Assembly: GCA_039707465.1 (NCBI GenBank)
Contig: CM077645.1
Location: 143,469,503-143,533,502, forward strand
Direction: 5' to 3'
Source of the DNA: Rhabdophis nuchalis
Lineage: Eukaryota; Chordata; Lepidosauria; Squamata; Natricidae
Length of the DNA stretch: 64,000 nucleotides
Shown here: piece by piece, positions 3,291 through 58,900 of the stretch
Numbering within the stretch: position 1 is the stretch's first letter
Layout: each line of letters opens with the position of its first letter
The notes under the pieces: generated by a model
Told to the model about the DNA's origin: nothing
Seen by the model: only the letters and a program-made list of their open reading frames with translations
The model's database searches: none
Position numbers and translations under genes: made by a program

Positions 3291-5440
3291 GATGGTTATA
3301 TTATAGCATTACTTTCTATAGTTGGTAAATTAATGTTGCTATCGATATTTTAATACCTACGTTGGCAAATGTATTGGTCTATAACCAGCACCCTTGGCAG
3401 GATCTTTCTTGGGCTTTAATATTACTGTGATGTAAACCTCATAAAACATTGAAAGAAAAATAAATTAAATGATTGATTATAGATCTCCAACAACCTAAGG
3501 GCCAGTAGGTCTACACAAATTCTATAGCATCAAGTCCTGATACTTTCCCCAGTATTACAATTTTCAGTAATTTCTTATAATCACCGTAGTTGTAATATTA
3601 AGAAATATATGTTATGTTCCTGGGAAATCTCTTCTATGTAAATATGTACTAGAAAATTAATAATTTGCTATTCAGTTACAAAAATCTCTAATTGATATGA
3701 CTGAATAAAAAAATAATTGTGTTGATTGGTCTATTTTGTTTCATTAATCTGTCATTAATCTGGATCCAGATATGAAGTTTTGTCATTTCTGTGTTTCAGA
3801 AACATAAACAGTGCTATTAGTGTGTTACAAAAGAGAGAAAATGTGACATAGCAGCCCTGGCTGATATTTCACCTCTATTTCCTAAGAAAATCTTTTGACT
3901 TATTTCCTTAGAAAATCTATTGACTGTATCTGAGCTAATATTCTCAGACACAGTTTAGGATTTAGTAAATCTGTATCTGTATTTTACAGAGAAAAGAATA
4001 ATATATTTGGGTGAATAAGTTTATTTTAGATTGTTTCCTGATTCAGTATTTTTCATAGGTAGAAATGCTTGTATATTCATTTGATTATAATAGGTCCAAT
4101 CACATCATGTTTAAATGATAATGTGAAGTTCTAGACAGAAATTCATTTTCATAAAAGGTATTTACTTCTAAGATAAGTACTGTAAATGCAGTTAATTCAT
4201 AGAAGCAACAATCAAAACAGAATAGAGTGCTCAAATCGCTAATTCTTTATTTGCTTAATTAATGCAAGGCTAAACTTATTTGGTTTCTCAGAAGTTCTTT
4301 TGCTGGTTGTTGATTACTAGAGTCCAACTTCAAATAACGTCTTTTAAGTATTCTAACAAAAATCTGTAATGAAATTATATTATTATTTGAATAAGATATT
4401 ATTCATAAGTCTATTATAACCACGTCTATTTGCATTTCTCAGGTTAAAAGAAAGCTAGTTTATGAAACAATGGATAATATATGGTTATAATTAATATTGG
4501 CTTTTGTTTCCTATTTAATAGAGGAAATGTCCATCTTTGAAGTACTTGTCAAAATATTACACCAGCATTTATATTAAAAAAATAATTAAAATCACTGTAG
4601 CAATTTATGAGCATATATACCTCGGAAAAATTCCTAGTGGATTATATATTATAAAATATTCAATCATAAATTAATGCAAGCTATGCTATTAAAGTAGTGT
4701 ATTCATAGTTAAACAAAGAGCACATGAAACATACTTATGCATAATGTTAATACATTTTATGAGTATGTAAAATAGTTATATTTTACAGTATGTGAATGTA
4801 AAATTTGCATTGGATAAAACTAGTGCGTTGGTCTACTATATATGACCTCCTTTATTTCTTCAGATTACTTTCCTCAAAACAAGTGTAGCTATGACAGTGC
4901 TATTTATTTTTTCTTCTTCCTTTTTACTCCCTTCTCCACTGACTGGTATAAATAATTTAAAACATCCTAAATTTCATGATAAAGATCATTATGATATTGT
5001 TAACAAGGCTGTCAGAAAGGCTGCTCACTTATTTTATGTATCATAGTCTACAAATATAGCAAACTAAGGTGACAAAATGCTGAGGTTGTAGAATGAAATT
5101 CATCCCAAGGTATCTCTTTCAAAGACCCAGTTCATCTTTAGAAGCAGAAACATAACTTGTGTAGTTAAACTAATCACTTGAAAATGTGGTCTTCTACTAA
5201 AAAGCACCTCTGGTATCTGGTGTCCTGGTATCTTAGAGCAATAGACAAAATAAACATACATGTATAACTAAAAGGCGTTTCAATTTATTTTATATAATTT
5301 TTGTTCTTTTTCTCACTATCATGTCAAGATTGGCCATCCAGTTGGCCATTCTGCATTGCTTGATACCAGCTTGCAAGCTTGTAAGAGGCAACCCATAAAA
5401 GTCCATTACTATTTCTTTAGTAAACTTTTTAAATATTTAT
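3291..5440. other. Unique AT-rich DNA, repeat-poor
   Basis: About 2.1 kb with no repeat that I recognise and no exon-like open frame. It is very AT-rich with many ATTA/TAAT words. Nothing specific can be claimed. Confidence 0.45.
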
Positions 5441-7400
5441 ACAATACAATAGCAGAGTTGGAAAACCCTATACCATTTCAGACAAATGGCTATCCAACAT
5501 CTTAATCGACAAAATCGATCAGATATGGGACGGGTTAGCCTCCGATTGGACTAGTTCAGATGGGCTAACGGAGGCAGGTCTTGAGTCCATTTTCTGGGAA
5601 GAGTTCGATCCTGTGACTTCCGAGGACATGGACAGGTTACTGGGGCGGCTGAACGCCACCACATGTTTACTGGACCTGTGTCCCTCCTGGTTGGTAATGG
5701 CCTCCCGGGAGGTTACACAAGGCTGGCTCCAGGGAATTGTCAACGCTTCTTTGAGTGAGGGGTTCTTGCCGGCCGCCTTGAAAGAGGCGGTGGTGAGGCC
5801 CCTCCTCAAGAAGCCCTCCCTGGACCTGGCTGTTTTGGCCAACTACCATCCTGTCTCCAACCTTCGCTTTCTTGCGAAGGTTGTTGAGAGTGTGGTGGCA
5901 CGACAGTTCCCCCAGCACCTGGAGGAAACTGTCTATCTAGACTCGCGCCAGTCCGGCTTCCAGCCTGGGCACAGCACGGAAACGGCATTGGTCGCGTTGG
6001 TCGATGATCTCTGGAGGGCTCGGAATAGAGGTTGCTCCTCTATCCTGGTCCTATTAGATCTCTCAGCGGCTTTCGATACCATCGACCATGGTATCTTGTT
6101 GAGCCGGTTAGAGGGGCTGGGGGGCACCGTTTTACGGTGGTTCTCCTCCTACCTCTCTGACAGGTCGCAATTTGTGTTGGCAGGGGGGCAGAGGTCGACC
6201 TCGAGGTGCCTCACTTGTGGGGTACCACAGGGGTCGGTCCTCTCACCCCTCCTGTTCAACATCTATATGAAGCCACTGGGTGAGATCATCCGTGGTTTCG
6301 GGGTGGACTTTCATCAGTACGCAGATGACACCCAGCTGTACATCTCCACCCCGGACCACACCAACGATGCCGCGGAAGTGATGTCCCGGTGCCTGGAGGC
6401 CGTGCGAGTCTGGATGGGGAGGAACAGGCTTTGACTCAACCCATCCAAGACCGAGTGGCTGTGGTTTCCAGCGTCACGACATAGCCAGTTGGTTCCATCC
6501 CTGGCTATCGGGGGCAAGTCATTAGCCCCCATGGAGAGGGCCCGCAACTTGGCTGTCCTCCTGGATACTCGGCTGTCTTTAGACGATCATATGACAGCCA
6601 TGGCCAGGGGGGCTTTTTATCAGGTTTGCCTGATACACCAGTTGTGCCCCTTTCTGGATCGTGATGCTCTACGCACGGTCACTCAAGCCCTCGTTGTTTC
6701 CTGCCTGGACTATTGCAATGCTCTCTACATGGGGCTCCCCTTGAGGTGCACCCGGAGGCTCCAGCTAGTTCAGAATGCGGCCATGCGGGGGATTCTGGGG
6801 GCCTCTAGATGCTCCCATGTAACACCTCTCCTGCGCGAGCTGCACTGGCTGCCTGTGGCCTTCCGGGTGCGCTTCAAGATGTTAGTAACAACCTTTAAAG
6901 CGCTCCATGGCAAGGGACCTAGGTATTTGCAAGACCGCCTCCTACCACATACCTCCCTCCGACCAGTCCGCTCCCACAGAGAGGGCCTCCTCAAGGTGCC
7001 GTCGGCCAGTCAATGCTGGCTGGCGACCCCTAGGGGGAGAGCCTTCTCTGTGGCAGCTCCCGCCCTCTGGAATGACCTATCCCCTGACCTATGTACAATC
7101 ACAAACCTGCGCCTTTTACGCCGAGCCCTGAAAACCCATCTATTTCGTGCGGCCGGCCTGGCATAGATTTAATTTGTTTTATTAGGGTTTTATAATGGTA
7201 TTTTAGAGCAGGCCCACTGTTTAATTTGATTTTAGAACTTTTAGCATATTTATTGGATTATTGGATGTTTTATTGTGGTTTTTTATTATCACCTGTTCAC
7301 CGCCCTGAGCCCCGCAAGGGAGATAGGGCGGTATATAAATATAATTAAATAAATAAATAAATAAATAATAAATTAAAGAGTTCCAGGGTTGGGGCATTCA
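5440..7400 (-). mobile_element. CR1 LINE fragment split by an L2 insertion
   Basis: The left piece (5440-5503) and right piece (7372-7400) read as one continuous antisense CR1 3' segment of the type 'agagttggaa...caaatggctatccaacatctt...ccagggttggggcattcac'. The L2 at 5504-7371 lies between them. The join uses a short repeated TTAA-like word. This establishes the order: CR1 first, L2 second. Confidence 0.6.
5504..7371 (+). mobile_element. L2-like LINE with reverse transcriptase, one stop codon
   Basis: A 5'-truncated non-LTR retrotransposon whose frame stays open from about 5504 to 7166 except for one TGA at 6432-6434. The reverse-transcriptase motifs are visible in order: LDLSAAFDTIDH (about 6057-6092), GVPQGSVLSPLLFN (6220-6261) and the catalytic YADDTQLYIS (6319-6348). 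The C-terminal part carries LDYCNALY, LQLVQNAA, HVTPLLRELHWLPV, KALHG and the LWNDL block typical of the L2/CR1 group. The 3' UTR ends with a GC hairpin (7300-7333) and an AAATA-type tail (to 7371). The stop sits where the related copy at 43782 has a sense codon, which suggests a CGA to TGA change. No 5' UTR, ORF1 or endonuclease domain is present, so it was truncated at insertion. It copied itself by target-primed reverse transcription; this copy is not autonomous. Confidence 0.9.
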
Positions 7401-11520: not shown

Positions 11521-11632
11521 TATTAAATTATTAGATTTGTTGGTGCACATACATATACATACACATATACATATATATGTAGGTCTTTGGTTATTCGGGT
11601 TTTCTCCCACGTAGAATTGGAAGTATCTTCAC

Positions 11633-11666
11633 GACGTTTCGATGAAATCTCATTCATCATCTTCAG
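11633..11666 (-). ncRNA. Hammerhead-like motif in Penelope-like end
   Basis: On the minus strand: CTGAAGA, an extra T, a six-base stem GATGAA/TTCATC around TGAGAT, then GAAA and CGTC. This resembles a hammerhead core (CUGANGA, stem II, GAAA, then a palindromic ACGU that could pair between two copies). The extra base between CUGAAGA and the stem is a departure from the standard core. Activity is unproven. Confidence 0.4.
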
Positions 11667-11749
11667 GCTGGTGCTTCCAGCTTGGTGCTTCCAGGAGCAA
11701 TGTGAGATCTCAGCCGGTTCCTCTTTTTAACTGCCAGTGGGAGTGTGAC

Positions 11750-11900
11750 GTGATTGGGTGGGATCTTGGCTGCATTCTGATTGGGTGGAGGTGTGTTCTG
11801 ATTGGTAGGGGGGTTGGCTGTGTTCTGATTGGATGGGAGTTTGGCTGTGCTCTGATTGGATGGGGGCGTGTTCTGTTTGGGTGGGGGCCTGGTTGTGCTT
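11750..11900. repeat. Minisatellite, TGATTGG-type units
   Basis: About six imperfect units of alternating length (roughly 21 and 28 bp), each beginning TGATTGG or TGTTTGG. They lie within the Penelope-like fragment. Confidence 0.8.
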
Positions 11901-12002
11901 GTGTTAGTCCGAGTTGCATATATATATATATATACTTTAGTAGATTTTCACGGGTGTAGGTATGCTGGTATTGCTGTCTTTGGGTGTTTTCCCGTGTAAG
12001 CA

Positions 12003-12292
12003 TGAACTACGCACCATCACCAACCTCCGCCTCTTCCGCCAATGTCTAAAGACATATTTGTTCCAACAAGCCGGCCTAGCCTAACCTCCCATGGGGACTT
12101 TTAGGAAGTTTTTAAATTGGATTTTAAATTTGGTTTTAGCACAGGTGGGAGTGTTTAATATTTATTTTAAATTATATATTTACTTTTTGTACTTCATATG
12201 TTTTTTAAATTTCCTGTGCGCCGTCCTGGGTCCTCCATGGAGAAGGGCGGGATATAAATTCGAATAAAATAAAAATAAAAAATAAAATTGTT
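12003..12292 (+). mobile_element. L2-like LINE 3' end, 290 bp
   Basis: It begins inside the last codons of the L2 frame ('ctccgcctcttccgccaa' region), runs through the 3' UTR and the hairpin 'cgccgtcctgggtcctcc...agggcggg', and ends in an AAATA-rich tail. Strongly 5'-truncated; inserted in Penelope-like sequence. Confidence 0.85.
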
Positions 12293-12350
12293 ATTGCAAC
12301 GTTTTGTCAAGATCTCACTTGCCATCTTCAGGCTTCGGTCTGACCACAAA
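12293..12350 (-). mobile_element. Penelope-like terminal fragment
   Basis: The minus strand has CTGAAGA, T, GGCAAG/CTTGAC around TGAGAT, then AAAA and CGTTGC. This is the same architecture as 11633-11666, with one stem mismatch and the GAAA box changed. It probably continues the element split by the L2 insertion, or belongs to a sister family. Confidence 0.45.

Positions 12351-42629: not shown

Positions 42630-42662
<33 letters not shown>
42630..42662. repeat. (GT)n microsatellite
   Basis: About 14 GT units next to the retrozyme-like block. Confidence 0.95.
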
Positions 42663-42865
42663 CACTTTGCTCCACAACACCCTGTTAGGCCCCAATTAAG
42701 GGAGGAGACATGCTGTTTCCTTTTCAGCTTTTCGGCTCATCACCAGAGACCATCTAGACAGAAAGCCATGAGTTCCGTTGTTGTGTAATTTTTTTATATG
42801 TGTGTTAGGTTTTTTGAGTTGATCAATAAATAAATCAGGGAGACTAATATAGATCTATTTCTAGC

Positions 42866-42946
42866 TTTTTAGCCTTACTGGGATTCGAACCGGGTCTGTA
42901 TTACATGCTAGGCAGATGCCTTAACCACTTGAGCCACCAGGTTCTC
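42866..42946 (-). other. tRNA-like domain of the retrozyme-like unit
   Basis: On the minus strand: A-box-like TGGCTCAAGTGG, a CTGCCTAGCATG stretch in the anticodon-arm position, and B-box GGTTCGAATCCC. It is followed directly by 'agtaagg' and a hammerhead fold whose 5' half has been lost (GAAA box intact at 42858-42861). Confidence 0.7.
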
Positions 42947-43184
42947 TTCCTTCTCTTCCTGCTCAGCTGAGACAGGAGGATAAGTATATACTTTGTTCCA
43001 CAACACCCTGTTAGGCCCCAATTAAGGGAGGAGACATACTGTTTCCTTTTCTGCCTTTCGGCTCATCAGTAAGGCTTTCTGTCTAGATGGTCTTCTGGTG
43101 ATGAGCCGAAAGGCAGAAAAGGAATAATACTTTGTTATGGAACAAAGTATATACTTATCCTCCTGTCTCAGCTGAGCAGGAAGA

Positions 43185-43256
43185 GAACCTGGTGGCTCAA
43201 GTGGTTAAGGCATCTGCCTAGCATGTAATACAGCCCCAGTTCGAATCCCAGTAAGG
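43185..43256 (+). other. tRNA-like domain of the retrozyme-like unit
   Basis: 'ggtggctcaagtggttaagg' (A-box), 'catctgcctagcatgtaata', and B-box AGTTCGAATCCC lead into 'agtaagggtat' and the hammerhead fold at 43261. No introns or clear acceptor pairing. It may act as an internal RNA polymerase III promoter. Confidence 0.7.
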
Positions 43257-43260
43257 GTAT

Positions 43261-43307
43261 GGCTAGCTGATGTGAGCTAAAAAGCTCGAGATAGATCTAT
43301 ACTAGTC
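43261..43307 (+). ncRNA. Hammerhead ribozyme fold, type I, two core changes
   Basis: Stem I pairs GGCTAG (43261-43266) with CTAGTC (43302-43307), with one G-U. The core strand is CTGATGT (43267-43273; standard CUGANGA, so A9 is changed). Stem II is GAGCT (43274-43278) with AGCTC (43283-43287) around AAAA. The second core strand is GAGA (43288-43291; standard GAAA). Stem III is A-TAG (43291-43294) with CTA-T (43297-43300) around AT. The predicted cleavage site is after A43301 (AUA, fits NUH). The sister copy at 43725-43769 has the complementary intact boxes. Confidence 0.7.
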
Positions 43308-43649
43308 TCCCTGATTTATTTATTGATCAGCTCAAAAAACCTAACGTATAGATATATATATATAAAACTAACTAACATATATGTGTGTGTGTGTGTTAGC
43401 TTTATGAGCTGATCAATAAATATATAATTGTTCCACAACACCCTGTTAGGGCCCCAATTAAGGGAGGAGACATACTGTTTCCTTTTCTGCCTTTCGGCTC
43501 ATCACCAGAGACCATCTAGACAGAAAACCATGAGTTCCATTGTGTGATTTTTTTAATATGTGTGTTAGTTTTATGAGCTGATCAATAAATATAATTGTGG
43601 AACAATTATAGATACTTATCCTCCTGTCTCAGCTGATGCAATAAGAGAA

Positions 43650-43720
43650 CCTGGCTGGCTGAATGGCTAAAGGCTCTTGCCTGATATGCAATACAGCCCC
43701 AGTTCAAATCCCAGTAAGGG
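43650..43720 (+). other. tRNA-like domain, diverged copy
   Basis: 'tggctgaatggctaaagg', 'cttgcctgatatgc' and AGTTCAAATCCC correspond to the A-box, anticodon-arm and B-box parts of the copy at 43185-43256. It leads into the hammerhead fold at 43725. Confidence 0.65.
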
Positions 43721-43724
43721 TATA

Positions 43725-43769
43725 GCTAGCTGATGAGAGCTAAAAAGCTCAAAATAGATCTATACTAGT
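43725..43769 (+). ncRNA. Hammerhead ribozyme fold, type I, one core change
   Basis: Stem I pairs GCTAG (43725-43729) with CTAGT (43765-43769). The first core strand is a perfect CTGATGA (43730-43736). Stem II is GAGCT/AGCTC around AAAA (43737-43750). The second core strand is AAAA (43751-43754) where GAAA is required, so G12 is lost. Stem III is A-TAG with CTA-T around AT (43754-43763); cleavage would follow A43764. Catalytic G12 is essential in known hammerheads, so this copy should be inactive. Confidence 0.7.
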
Positions 43770-43781
43770 CTCCCTGATTTG

Positions 43782-45136
43782 ATTGATGATCTCTGGAGGG
43801 CCAGAGATGGGGGTTGTTCCTCCATCCTGGTCCTATTAGACCTCTCGGCGGCTTTCGATACTATCGACCATGGTATCCTATTGCATCGGCTGGGGGGGTT
43901 GGGGGTGGGAGGTACCGTTTTACGGTGGTTCTCCTCCTACCTCTCTGGCCGATCGCAATTTGTGTTGGCAGGGGGGCAGAGGTCGACCTCGAGACCCCTC
44001 ACATGTGGGGTGCCTCAGGGGTCGGTCCTCTCGCCCCTCCTGTTTAACACATATATGAAGCCGCTGGGTGAGATCATCCGTGGTTTTGGGGTAGAGTACC
44101 ATCTATACGCTGATGACACTCAGTTGTATATATCTACCCCAAACCACCCCAACGATGCCGTAGCGGTGATGTGCCAGTGCCTGGAAGCCGTGCGGATCTG
44201 GATGGGAAGTAACGGACTCAGGCTCAACCCGACCAAGACCGAGTGGCTGTGGTTTCCGGCTGCCCGATTCAACCAGCTCACTCCATTGCTGGCCATAGGG
44301 GGCGAACATCTTGCCCCTGTGGATGGGGCGCGCAATTTGGGTGTCCTCCTGGATGCCTGGCTGTCCATGGAAGATCAGGTGACAGCCGTGGCCAGGAGGG
44401 CGTTTTACCAGGTTCGCCTGGTTCGTCAATTGCGCCCCCTATTGGATCGGGACGCCCTTCGCACAGTCACTCACGCGCTCGTGACATCCCGACTGGACTA
44501 TTGTAACTCTCTCTACATGGGGCTTCCCTTGAGTTGCACCCGGAGACTTCAGCTAGTCCAGAACGCAGCCGCGCGAGCAATTATGGGAACCGTCAGGTCT
44601 ACCCATGTAACACCGCTCTTGCGCGAGCTGCACTGGCTACCTGTCGTCTTCCGGGTGCGCTTCACGGTGTTAATTATCATCTTTAAAGCGCTCCATGGCT
44701 CGGGACCTAGCTATCTGCGGGATCGGATCCTGCCTCATACATCCTCACGGCCGATTCGCTCCCACAGAGAGGGACTTCTCCGGGTGCCGTCCACTAGACT
44801 TTGTCAGCGGGCGACGCCCAGGGGAAGGGCTCTCTCTGTGGCGGGCCCGGCCCTCTGGAACGACCTTCCCCCCGATATTAGGACGACCACGGACCTCCGC
44901 TCCTTCCGTCTTAAATTAAAAACTCATCTTTTCTGTCTGGCCGGCCTGGGATAGTCTCTCTGTCTCTGGGGTTTTATTGGGTAGTTTTTAGTATAGTTTA
45001 GTTTTAATGGGGAATTTTAGCGCAGGTTAGGTTTAATTTGTTTTTAAGAAATGTCTGTATATTTTTATTGTTTTTATTCTACCTGTGCACCGCCCCGAGT
45101 CCCTATGGGGAGAGGGAGCGGTTATACAAATATTAA

Positions 45137-49120: not shown

Positions 49121-49553
49121 CAGTGGTACCTCGGTTCACGAACGCCTCTGTTCATGAACAACTCGGTTCACGAACAGAAAAGTTCATAAAAATATGCTCC
49201 GGTTCACAAACTCCGCTTCTGTTCACGAACTCCGCCTCGGTTCACGAACTCCGCCTCAGGTCACAACCAATTTGGTTCGCGACCAGAGTCAGTTCAAGAA
49301 TTAAAACCAAAAGAAAGATCAGAACGGATTAACCAGATTTACATTAAACCCTATGGGAAACTGTGCCTCGGGTCACGACCAATTTGGTTCGCGACCAGAG
49401 TCAGTTCAAGAATTAAAACCCCAAAAAAAAGATCAGAACGGATTAACCGGATTTACATTAAACCCTATGGGAAACTGTGCCTCGGTTCGCCACCAATTCG
49501 GTTCGCGACCAGAGTCAGTTCACGAATTAAGTTCGTGAACCGAGATACCACTG
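49121..49553. mobile_element. Tigger/pogo-like MITE, 433 bp, TA-flanked, internal tandem
   Basis: Starts CAGTGGTACCTCGGTTCACG and ends with its reverse with one mismatch over 23 bases; TA on both sides (49119-49120, 49554-49555). The interior has the block 'ggttcgcgaccagagtcagt' at 49274, 49386 and 49500, a tandem with a 112-114 bp period. TA target and CAGTGG ends fit the Tc1/mariner superfamily, pogo branch. Inserted at the TA that flanked the element at 48474. Confidence 0.88.
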
Positions 49554-54556: not shown

Positions 54557-55563
54557 CATAACAGAGAGTAGAGTTCGATCTTTGTGGACTTTAAAAAAAA
54601 CTATCTTTCTTGAGAATGTGTTTAACCCCGAAAAATACAAAGTTTAACACTTTTGCCCCAAAAGAAGAATGTTCTTGAATTACACTGACCAAGTAAAAAT
54701 TGCAAGGCAACCTCATTAAGTCCATCAAAACAGTGAAAGAAAAGACTGTCACAAAGCAAGTCCTGAATAAAGTTTCAAACTAATTTAACATTAAAAAAAA
54801 ATAGTGAGACATCCTCTTACAGAGATCAGTATTGCTTGCTCCAAATTAGTCTTTCAGATTCAAGGAGGAAGAAAATTTGTTGACTCACTAAGGACTATGC
54901 CCACAACTATATGCATTGGAAGTATGGGGAAAAGTTTCTTTCAGTATTAGGACATTATTTTGGATAATACAATGATTAACCAACCATTCAAAACTCCAGA
55001 AATGTTGCATTAGCATATGACACTGATTTTTCAAAAAAAAACCAATCCAAAATGTGAAGCTGGCTTAAAGCGGTTGAAGGTTGACTGCTAAAAAAATAAT
55101 GAAAGTGAAAAATAGATGGCAGCTGCTAAATTTAAATCAAAGTGTTATAATATCACTGATCAAAAAAATGTTGTAGGTGACAATGAACATGTTGCAGTAG
55201 TCAAATGAGGAGAGGGAGAGAAAGAGAAATCATTGCATAGTTATTAGTTATGAATTATAATTTATACGAACAGAATTTCTCCTTGTAACTACTATCAAAG
55301 ACATTGGTCATAAATATTTCCAAAGAAAATACCTGTTAACCCAAGTCAATTAATAATACATTGAAATCCAGCAGTTCTCCTAGCGAGGTCTTCCTCTCTA
55401 GCTAGTCAATTATTACCTTCATTTCAAACGAGAAGCTTCCTTTATATGCAATAGGCCTACATTTTTATGAGGGAGATCAAATACTCCATGGCTCAGCTTT
55501 CTTTTTTTTAAGAAGGTTTTCCCCCCCAAAAAAGCTGATAGCAGATCTTCTTTAACTTTACAG
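54557..55563. other. Unique DNA upstream of the cadherin exon
   Basis: No repeat recognised. It ends in a polypyrimidine tract and AG (TCTTCTTTAACTTTACAG, 55546-55563), the acceptor for the exon at 55564. A branch point could lie in this last 50 bases but was not pinned down. Confidence 0.5.
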
Positions 55564-55670
55564 GATATTATTCTCCTTTAAGGTGCTTGCCCGGTATCAC
55601 TGAAAGGCTTTATTTGGAAGGTTCGCGGATCTATCTATTGGATTCTTTAGAGGACAATCCTCATATGAAA
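55564..55670 (+). other. CDH20: 5' UTR part of CDH20 first coding exon
   Basis: The exon begins after the acceptor AG at 55563. These 107 bases carry no in-frame stop, so the reading frame is open up to the acceptor. No in-frame ATG occurs before 55665. Confidence 0.7.
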
Positions 55671-55907
55671 ATGCGGACATCAAGCAGAATGGATAATGCA
55701 AAGAAGTGGCTTGGATTCAGTTTTTGTTTTATGATGAACCTCATTACAACTGTATTATCTGGAACTAGCAGACCTCCAAGCAAAGGCCAAGGACAAAGTC
55801 TCTCAGACAACTTGCTTCTTCATCAACGAATGAAGAGGAGTTGGGTGTGGAACCAGTTCTTTGTTCTGGAAGAATACACGGGAACAGATCCTTTGTACGT
55901 TGGGAAG
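55671..55907 (+). CDS. CDH20: Cadherin-20, first coding exon (partial, 79 codons)
   Basis: This exon starts a type II classical cadherin, a calcium-dependent homophilic adhesion protein of the plasma membrane. Residues 1-7 read MRTSSRM, followed by NAKKWLG and a hydrophobic signal segment (about residues 14-30). A short prodomain ends at RMKR (residues 53-56), a furin site. The mature chain begins [20 protein letters not shown]; its Trp2 and Trp4 are the pair that insert into the partner EC1 in type II cadherins. The N-terminal pattern (SxRMxNAKxWLG, TTVLS, LSD, HQRxKRSWVWN) is that of cadherin-20, not cadherin-7, whose EC1 start is the same. Start chosen at 55671 (A at -3) because it aligns with the known CDH20 start; ATG 55665 would add two residues and has a poor context. 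The exon ends VGK with donor GTAAGG at 55908, phase 0. The next exon is not in the window. Confidence 0.9.
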
Positions 55908-58900
55908 GTAAGGAGCTGGATGCGGGATGGGGAATCAGAGATCTACTATAGTCATGAGATGGTTAATGGTTTAAAGAATATTAGAATGTTTGTTGTGAAT
56001 TTCACAAAAGAGGGTTTTTTTTTCTAGTTGAGAGAGATGAGAGAATATAGGATTTCTGTTCTGTTCTCCAGCAAAATATATATATTTGTGGACATCTGAT
56101 TTATATCTGAGAGCTTCCTGTTCATGTCACTCTGAACTGAGCGTAATGGCTGTGTTGAAAGACTGTCAATGGTTTGCCTTTTTCCTAAAGATCAGCACTG
56201 ACAATTACCAACTGTAATTGACATCTTCCTAACAAAATCTCTGTCAGCATTTATTTGAACTGTCTCAGTGTCAGTGCACAGACTGGTACAGATTGATAAA
56301 GAGAGAGTGGGGACAAAGAGAGATTGCAGAAGCTTATTTTGGCTTCCTTCTGAAGGTCTTTGAACAAGGACTGTTTCTGTATTCAAAACTTATTTCCCAA
56401 CCATTGCCCAAGTATCTGTAGCCAATGCTGAAGTGAAATAAAAATCATAGTATCCTAAATATTAATTGGTGGTGAAAGCAGGAATTAATTTTTCCTCGTG
56501 CCTATTTGTTGATTTGTACGTTCCCCTGTTCCTAAACAATGGCAAACAACAAATTGCAACAAATTTGGGGTCATCTATTTGCGTTATAATATGAAAGGTT
56601 CTCGATCATATTAGAACACAAATAGATGGTCCCAGAGAGTAAAAGAAGAGGAAATTAATCATATCATTTAAGCCTTTTGCATAAGGTATGTTTTCCAAAT
56701 AATATAATTCACCCAGGATTTTAAGCTAGTTTTTATTTACAATATTGTTGCTGAATAGGACTGGGTGATCCAACCAGATTATTAATTTTTTAGAAAACGA
56801 GTTCTCTGTTTTGAGACTCAGCACTGGCATAATGTACTAATAGTAAAACATCTTATACTCATTTTTCTTTCAGTGTCAGGGTTAGGTTAAATTCATGATA
56901 TTCCCATTTTTCCATATTTATTATACTGTTTAGGTTCTGCATCTATTTAATCATCTACTCTTTAACTTATTTAATTTCTGTGTAATATTTCAGTATCGGC
57001 TTGTAACAAGCTCTGCAAAGTTTTCAGAGTTCTGTGTTACAAGTCATATTCAGTCCAAGTATTTCTGCCCTGTTTTTGCAATTCCTTTTGAACTATACTG
57101 CTTATTTCAAGATGACTCTGGCCATTGTGAAGAGAGAGTCTTAAAGGATTTCATCTTTGTCTTATTAAAAATTAGGAATTCATTATTCTGTATGAATAAT
57201 TCTCTCTCCCCTGCTTACATTTTTGTATATTCACCTTCATTAAAGAAATATTTAACACTGAGGCAAGGCCAATGAATCTGGGCTCCCTCTTTTTCTGTGT
57301 TTATTCCATAGTTTTAATCTGCTGCTTTTGACTGAATAATGTATTATAGTTTTTGCATTTCTATTTCTATAAACTACAGCTATTTATGCAAGCTGTCTGG
57401 AAGTCCTGCTCTCTCAGTAGAAGTAACCCAGACATAAGGTTATAAAATCCAGTCTGTGGTGTAAGTTAGAACATGGCTTGGTAGTTTTGTACGAGATTTC
57501 ATACCACAAATAGAAAATTAAAACTTGGTATTTTTGCTACTGCTGTTCTTCCAGGACACTGTTAATATATGTTAAATAAATTTAATATAATTTTAATTAT
57601 ATTTTTCTAAGTCTGGAAGTCATTTTTCTTTTACAAATATTCATTGTTTTTATTAAGTGAGTTCCAAGTACTTAATTGCTTTAAGGGTAATACATTTGCT
57701 GCAAATGTTGCTTTTCTTCTTTAGGGAAACTCCATTTTGGTGTTGTTCTTATTAATTAATTCAATATCCTTACACCAAACCATATTAATTCCAAAGAATC
57801 CCTTGGATGAATAATTGTAAGTGCAACTTCACCTGCATACAATATGTAGTTAAAATATGTAGTTCTTAATTTTCCAGTTTGTTTCCTGATTTTTTTTTCT
57901 TTGTCACCTCTTCCTTGCAAAAGTCCCATGCAAGAAAATCCCTACTGTTCATCAGTATATTTAATATTGTGAACATAAAAGGCCACTCAAAATTATCAAA
58001 GACATTTTCCACAATAAGAAAAATCTTAAACCATTTTCTAGTTTGTATCATTTATATTATCAACAGCATTCAAAGTATATCTGATACTGTTCTTTATGTA
58101 TCTTTTTTTAGAAACAAAATCCAATAGGATTGGGATATATATTGTGTTAGTTAAAAAGCAGGATGGATGGATGGCTGAATGAATCAATGATTCAATGAAA
58201 GGTTACAGCCTACAAACAACTGAATTGTGTATTTTGAGAATAACATCCATTGATTGAAAACCTCTAGGAATTGCTGCTCTATGTGGGTGGGTCAGCTTTT
58301 CAAAACCAAGTGTCTTCCAAATGTGCTGGATTGCAACTCCTATTAGCCATGCTATGTACAAAATATGAAGTTAGATCTTCATCAAATGTAGAAAGTACCA
58401 GTTGGGAGTGACTAGGATTTCCTGGTTTTTCATCAACCTGCAATTATTTTATCTACCATATCATTTACACTGTAGTTAAATCTACATTTGAAATTATATT
58501 TTCTCTTAAAATACTTGTTTCTGTCAAATTTTTAAAATGTATTTCAAAACTGCCCGTATGGGAACTGTATGGGCTACTCAATAATTAAGAGTTTATTTGC
58601 AACTAACTGGGAGTTATGAAGCAAATTAGTTCAAAACGAGGTTTGCAAAGAATTATTTTAGCAATCTCGCTTTAGATGTACAAAATGGGGAATTTCAAAG
58701 GGCCTTTGCAGCCAACTATTTTGCAGTCCAATAAAACATGCAATCATTACTAATTTGTGCAAAATTGAGCTATCTTCTTTGCAGTAGCAGCATCTTGTGG
58801 ATATGTCAATAGTGGAGAAATGTAATTTGTAATCATTACTAGAAGTGTGTTGTTACTGGGAGTGACTCTACTCAACTAGTTCACATTACTGCCAATCAGC

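Follow-up and report, generated by a model that had tools for sequence, protein, structure and literature searches.

Sequence evidence makes it probable that positions 42658-43791 of the window, i.e. the whole 64-kb stretch of DNA analysed here (C3:143469503-143533502 of a 1.918-Gb genome assembly in 348 contigs), hold two head-to-head insertions, both broken, of a non-autonomous retrozyme that occurs in high copy number, bears a tRNA-like head and is mobilised by Penelope-like elements (PLEs). The genome harbours a family of such units: matches to the ribozyme core are numerous, compensatory changes have preserved the hammerhead, some copies stand in tandem, 3' ends recur and many copies form head-to-head pairs. 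The first-pass annotation of this DNA had proposed a retrozyme-like or ribozyme-bearing SINE family, which fits the 336-nt units, tandem copies and weak stem III described below. Head-to-head structure, fixed ends and the link to PLEs go beyond it.

Arrangement of the copies in the window

The unit of the family (approximately 336 nt) consists of a tRNA-like block with A and B boxes, a type I hammerhead and other sequence. Unit positions are numbered from u1, the first base after the predicted cut. The feature, annotated at first as one block, is in fact composed of two head-to-head inverted pairs of arms (Table 1). Letters and coordinates given earlier for the hammerhead parts of two forward copies and one reverse copy are correct. 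This concerns copy 1 (CTGATGT and GAGA within 43261-43307), copy 2 (CTGATGA and AAAA within 43725-43769) and the reverse copy in arm 1, which retains GAAATAGATCTATATTAG and lacks the CTGATGA strand. The cores of all three hammerheads are broken. The predicted cuts would fall after 43301 in copy 1 and after 43764 in copy 2. A tRNA-like block lies upstream of all three copies, as had been noted; its counterpart in arm 1 occupies 42938-42870 (-), and the A and B boxes of arm 2 are 45 nt apart, start to start.

The 3' end of arm 1 runs into (GT)n (42630-42659, detected by TRF). Arms 2 and 3 are placed tail to tail with an (AT)n/(GT)n stretch between them. The right end of arm 4 adjoins a LINE reading frame, which we take to be CR1-like from its motifs.

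This reverse-transcriptase frame (43758-44954, +, 398 aa open) starts inside the right end of the retrozyme, and a second, presumably CR1-like frame of the same kind is located at 5433-7166 (+). The frame at 55542-56027 (+) is presumably a type II cadherin exon, and positions 49253-49530 contain a 114-bp tandem repeat (2.5 copies, 93% matches). A candidate second hammerhead at 43069-43042 (-) is probably due to chance, since CTGATGA is present there in one of four window copies and absent from the old L019 subfamily.

Table 1. Retrozyme and PLE features in the window
Feature	Position	Strand	Remarks
Retrozyme arm 1	42658..43068	-	from u104 round to u189, exceeding one full lap
Retrozyme arm 2	43073..43345	+	4 nt from arm 1, in head-to-head orientation
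tRNA-like block of arm 2	43193..43248	+	A box TGGCTCAAGTGG from 43193; B box AGTTCGAATCC at 43238-43248
Hammerhead copy 1, extended stem I	43255..43311	+	core CTGATGT..GAGA, two core changes
Retrozyme arm 3	43390..43591	-	two pieces: 43390-43425, 43416-43591
Retrozyme arm 4	43595..43791	+	3 nt from arm 3, in head-to-head orientation
B box of arm 4	43701..43711	+	AGTTCAAATCC
Hammerhead copy 2	43718..43774	+	core CTGATGA..AAAA; G12 to A, CpG-type change
PLE fragments	11576-11998 and 12282-12333	-	11576-11918 = p2157-2499 of L073, 97%

A large family with intact hammerheads

A query of 134 bases (tRNA-like block plus hammerhead) yielded, among the matches listed, 42 with 94-100% identity, 40 of 2,286 candidates being scored; copies are scattered over many contigs. 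The exact core pattern, written for one arm family only and with the first stem II pair left free, occurs 6,916 + 7,106 = 14,022 times in the genome, whereas its reversed version does not occur at all (0). The first-pass annotation had staked its reading on an excess of CUGANGA/GAAA cores and on compensatory changes in stems I-III, both of which were found. Among the core matches listed (the first on contig C1), the cleavage base is A or C only.

For closer analysis, loci were picked that resemble either the window copy or a PLE fragment. The first 31 of them gave 80 hammerhead rows, of which 11 were shorter than 60 nt, 5 could not be parsed and 4 were doubles from overlapping loci. Core and cleavable base are intact in 45 of the 64 parsed hammerheads, a proportion that is not a random sample because the loci were chosen by similarity. 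AAAA replaces GAAA in 10 of the 19 non-intact hammerheads, as expected from CpG decay of CTCGAAA. In ten further loci, most rows carry an intact hammerhead too.

Tandem copies are present in L024 and L007. In a tree of 74 copies, a star-like, short-branched group sits on older subfamilies arranged as a ladder; 45 of the 70 inner branches lack resolution. The family shares with metazoan retrozymes the type I hammerhead with intact core, broken in the window copies, and its 336-nt unit, tandem in these two loci, falls within their range of approximately 170-400 nt.

Exclusion of a chance fold

When the window was scanned, no exact core was found; at one core mismatch copy 2 alone was detected, and at two mismatches copies 1 and 2 alone. 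Twenty simulated 64-kb sequences, serving as controls for zero and one mismatch, gave 0.0 matches at both levels. In 1,035 Mb of simulated sequence, read on one strand, an exact hammerhead arose 5 times and one with at most one GAAA mismatch 48 times. From the latter, approximately 0.006 are expected in the window on both strands. Scaled to a genome of this size, the simulation predicts about 18 exact hammerheads, with a looser fold than that of the count pattern. Window scan, simulation, genome count and the covariation described below together rule out a chance fold.

Rfam reports nothing at gathering level across the window. Its Hammerhead_HH9 model (RF02275) describes a type I hammerhead similar to that of the unit. 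Copy 2 scores 24.5 bits against it, and the best family members 35.2 bits in five loci and 36.8 bits at L002, all below the gathering value of 52, so membership in HH9 was rejected. A separate hammerhead at L001 (C1:378970325-378970406) exceeds the HH9 cut-off with 88.7 bits. Pattern search of viral contigs gave 0 matches.

Compensatory changes and the predicted double hammerhead

In an alignment of 48 copies (A1), 97.0% of cells pair and both sides have changed in 6 of 18 base pairs; double-changed cells number 19, compared with 3.5 +- 1.6 after shuffling. In an alignment with older subfamilies (A2; 39 rows, 30 distinct), 8 of 18 pairs are affected, with 55 double-changed cells against 15.2 +- 3.8 in shuffles and at most 10 in slid controls. 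Kinship of the sequences inflates the shuffle tests and is retained in the slid controls; the counts take stem III with a fourth pair, which a hairpin could not close. The number of further pair types does not rise above shuffles in A1 (13 vs 11.4, 87/500 shuffles as high) or in A2 (17 vs 18.0, 486/500 as high).

Across old and young subfamilies, compensatory changes are seen in all three stems. Stem I occurs as CTAG/CTAG, CCAG/CTGG and CTAT/ATAG, stem II as GAGCT/AGCTC, AGGCT/AGCCT, GGGCT/AGCCC and GGACT/AGTCC, and stem III as TAGATCTA or TGGATCCA. N7, the sole free position of the core, can be T, A, C or G, while the remaining core positions deviate in 4 of 39 rows. Judged by its sequences, this hammerhead repeat is real and large, and is kept by selection in its source lineages.

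Stem III had been described as 4 bp with a 2-base loop. ViennaRNA rejects such a hairpin; the monomer would have a 3-bp stem III with the palindrome GAUC as its cap, a form that the folding model hardly populates. Two molecules of the commonest sequence cofold into a double hammerhead with a shared stem III of 10 bp (-41.0 vs 2 x -15.5 kcal/mol). The double form is predicted for 27 of the 40 natural rows without gaps (out of 48) and not for the other 13; the shared stem III is also formed by the three oldest rows, which are outside the 40. In this model, stem III lacks the strength to serve a monomer, but its palindrome gives a predicted double hammerhead. The whole-monomer fold is unremarkable (z -1.53). 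For axolotl and newt repeats a double form was reported, dimers cleaving better than monomers (available text of PMC7229834).

The tRNA-like block

A and B boxes of tRNAs are spaced by approximately 44 nt. Of 74 copies of the family, 46 have box starts 45 nt apart and 11 have them 44 nt apart, i.e. the spacing seen in tRNA-derived SINEs, and the B box reads GGTTCGAATCC in 36 copies. Both boxes together with the core are retained in 25 of the 74, according to our own patterns. A recognisable tRNA, expected of a tRNA-derived SINE, was not detected: Rfam found none in 2 kb of the window and five loci, and ARAGORN made a single call across 30 loci. The internal RNA polymerase III promoter proposed in the first-pass annotation has the support of box sequence and box distance (44-45 nt). 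We infer that the block may be transcribed by Pol III. TTTT is absent from the sense unit of L024, which contains five runs of at least four A.

Recurrent 3' ends and head-to-head pairs

Ends of copies were collected from 39 loci with a total of 120 segments; excluded were L001, L014 and L026 (which overlap) and any segment touching a locus end. 5' ends are scattered, whereas 3' ends recur: 56 lie in u44-67, 28 in u178-194, 3 at the ribozyme site and 33 elsewhere. Thus 84 of 120 fall into two ranges that were picked from the data (as was u35-67, used for pairs below). A binomial estimate for such concentration in 41 of 336 positions is 1e-48, a value that ignores relatedness and uses these data-chosen ranges. 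Microsatellites follow 74 of the 84 hot-spot 3' ends and 16 of the 36 others, and precede 27 of 120 5' ends. Some ends at u188 run into (GATA)n (L007:2135 and L027:836).

The ribozyme site is crossed by 83 of 120 segments, a count favoured by the choice of loci that hold a hammerhead, and 29 are longer than 336 nt. 5' ends show no trend towards the cleavage site that would indicate cellular cutting: 3 of 96 are no more than 1 nt away from u1, and two of these represent the two sides of a single junction in L011. Since 3/120 3' ends and 3/96 5' ends coincide with the ribozyme site, cleaved linear RNA is not the usual template. The L011 junction (L011:1245-1455) is a head-to-head join exactly u1/u1, at the predicted cleavage site, where CTAG is a palindrome.

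Among neighbouring segments within 60 nt, 38 head-to-head, 13 tail-to-tail and 13 same-strand arrangements were counted. The outer ends of the 38 head-to-head pairs fall into u35-67 or u178-194 on both sides in 18, on one side in 18 and on neither in 2. Head-to-head copies whose outer ends lie mostly at two fixed internal sites and pass into microsatellites, not at the ribozyme site, are a new observation.

Penelope-like elements share the insertion signature

L019 contains a reverse-transcriptase fragment beside an old unit. We take it to be Penelope-like on the basis of its motifs and of long frames found afterwards, up to 1011 aa in matching loci. A genome search with this fragment produced 839 candidates; the 150 matches that were scored have 91-100% identity, with the query itself on top. 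Pfam returned E 0.029 at best for the fragment, under all cut-offs, and 0 families for five homologues. PDB matches to the fragment are 0, and its homologous proteins comprise 17 matches without names. One PLE, L073, is a tandem with a period of 2972 nt: all of the 900 bases compared are identical, and three matches occur at this interval. It encodes the 1011-aa frame and carries its own hammerhead-like motif near the frame start, as does the Anolis PLE.

PLE 3' ends recur as well. Within p2380-2700, a range picked after seeing the L073 data, 7 of 21 lie at p2488-2500 and 11 at p2525-2532, and the head-to-head PLE pairs of L037 and L059 have one end at each site. The PLE fragment in the window has its 3' end at a recurrent site and contains a hammerhead-like motif (11666-11637). 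Within 40 nt, PLE pieces join head to head 10 times, tail to tail once and on the same strand twice; the corresponding unit joins number 43, 11 and 9. PLE and unit are joined to each other tail to tail in 5 cases, on the same strand in 6 and head to head in 0. Of 29 PLE loci (approximately 3.3 kb each), 14 contain unit pieces, and of 39 unit loci, 8 contain PLE pieces; core matches amount to about one per 137 kb of genome, and the 64-kb window has one unit cluster.

These counts replace those of a looser run, in which query flanks of L045/L047 were labelled PLE, the window and L003 entered as two places, and same-strand PLE joins were skipped. The looser run gave 19 head-to-head and 3 tail-to-tail PLE joins; 48, 12 and 10 (same strand) unit joins; 12 tail-to-tail, 10 same-strand and 1 head-to-head PLE/unit joins; and 15/29 and 12/39 loci.

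Simple-repeat ends are usual in SINEs. An ordinary tRNA SINE, mobilised by a LINE and carrying a hammerhead by chance, would share such ends as well as the boxes at tRNA-like spacing; CR1-like LINE frames are at hand in the window, and twin priming of LINE type could yield head-to-head pairs. This origin is unlikely: 3' ends recur at two distinct places within a unit that is circularly permuted, the 29 segments above extend beyond one lap, and PLEs of this genome have the same pair habit.

The unit might instead be a piece of the PLE control region (pseudo-LTR) and not an independent element. In L019, the PLE fragment (match ending at 377) is directly upstream of the old unit (beginning at or before 381) on the same strand, and six PLE/unit joins share this relative orientation. 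However, tandem L073, which provides one full PLE unit, has no match to our unit and its hammerhead-like motif is different, and five PLE/unit joins are tail to tail. This origin we regard as very unlikely. The notion of a satellite spread by DNA recombination and DNA rolling circles, with the hammerhead as a relic, accommodates tandem copies and inverted clusters, but it is highly improbable given copies dispersed over many contigs, recurrent 3' and scattered 5' ends as in reverse transcription, and a hammerhead maintained through compensatory changes.

The purified PLE protein of Anolis cuts and extends both strands and uses two adjacent internal starts in an AC-rich stem loop (PMC11167929, available text). 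The u49 site of the unit is AC-rich like this start site. Two internal 3' ends and priming from both strands, the insertion signature of that PLE, are likewise found in unit copies, as judged from the available text of PMC11167929. No frame with reverse transcriptase plus GIY-YIG, as expected of a PLE itself, is present inside the 336-nt unit; PLE frames reside in separate elements. Since Anolis hammerhead mutants still insert in vitro, insertion may not require the ribozyme; no RNA reads end at the hammerhead site (PMC11167929, available text).

For a PLE-mobilised retrozyme, the following route can be envisaged. RNA polymerase III would transcribe tandem units, such as the TTTT-free sense unit of L024. 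Two hammerheads within one multimer would pair via the palindrome and then cut. Circles or uncut multimers would be reverse transcribed by a Penelope-like protein of the same genome, starting at two internal sites and priming from both strands of a break, and priming from both strands would produce head-to-head pairs that end in microsatellites. Several results count against this reading: few ends lie at the ribozyme site, the Anolis PLE is indifferent in vitro to its hammerhead, L073 does not contain the unit, Rfam did not score the tRNA-like block as tRNA in the sequence scanned, further pair types do not exceed shuffles, and 13 of 40 rows do not give the double hammerhead. That the family is a live vertebrate element, a Pol III tRNA-hammerhead hybrid whose multimers self-cut to circles and are copied by PLEs priming from broken microsatellite strands, is a tentative proposal, possible if not quite probable.

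Comparison with known elements

SMalpha of Schistosoma possesses a Pol III promoter. This SINE-like element has a type I hammerhead and an example copy of 335 bp (PMC8490949, the available text of which has 0 mentions of a Pol III promoter); it belongs to another host and is likened to our unit by description only. Squamate SINEs Squam1-3 have a tRNA-like head, many copies and derived satellites (available texts of PMC7983390 and PMC10702118), a likeness also by description. Hammerhead, ribozyme and retrozyme are unmentioned in the available text of PMC10702118, as is hammerhead in that of PMC7983390.

Close in design are metazoan non-LTR retrozymes, particularly the axolotl families of 330/350 nt, which share the type I hammerhead, unit of approximately 330 nt, tandem arrangement and high copy number, as well as a weak stem III whose loop is palindromic and which functions in dimeric form (available text of PMC7229834). 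Unlike them, our unit has a tRNA-like block, an amniote-like genome as host, recurrent internal ends and head-to-head pairs. PMC7229834 names PLEs as a strong candidate for retrozyme mobilisation and leaves the mover open; the main text available makes no mention of Anolis, snake, coelacanth, reptil or Xenopus.

Hammerhead retroelements were placed in animals up to lower vertebrates, with few intronic hammerheads in amniotes (PMC6155905, available text). A known reptile case is the hammerhead-bearing PLE of Anolis, Poseidon, with two internal starts, an AC-rich start and both strands cut and extended (PMC11167929). Poseidon is protein-coding, and our unit has another hammerhead. The available text of PMC11167929 does not mention tRNA, SINE, non-autonomous, retrozyme, snake or microsatellite. 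No publication on a non-autonomous squamate hammerhead element was found in the literature searched, which excludes most subscription journals and all preprints.

Implications

A squamate survey reported ATAG repeats as expanded in snakes, without elements enriched alongside (PMC6050309, available text). The unit repeat could be a source of these expansions.

With more than 14,000 core matches, this non-autonomous family would be a large addition to known amniote hammerheads, and its tRNA-like head is a testable promoter. Because one genome contains both a retrozyme family that includes young copies and a large number of similar PLEs, with one insertion signature common to both, the question of mobilisation becomes testable. 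We know of no earlier direct genomic evidence for the mover of animal retrozymes. If the live Pol III tRNA-hammerhead element is real, it would provide the first such evidence, and would represent a source of microsatellite clusters.
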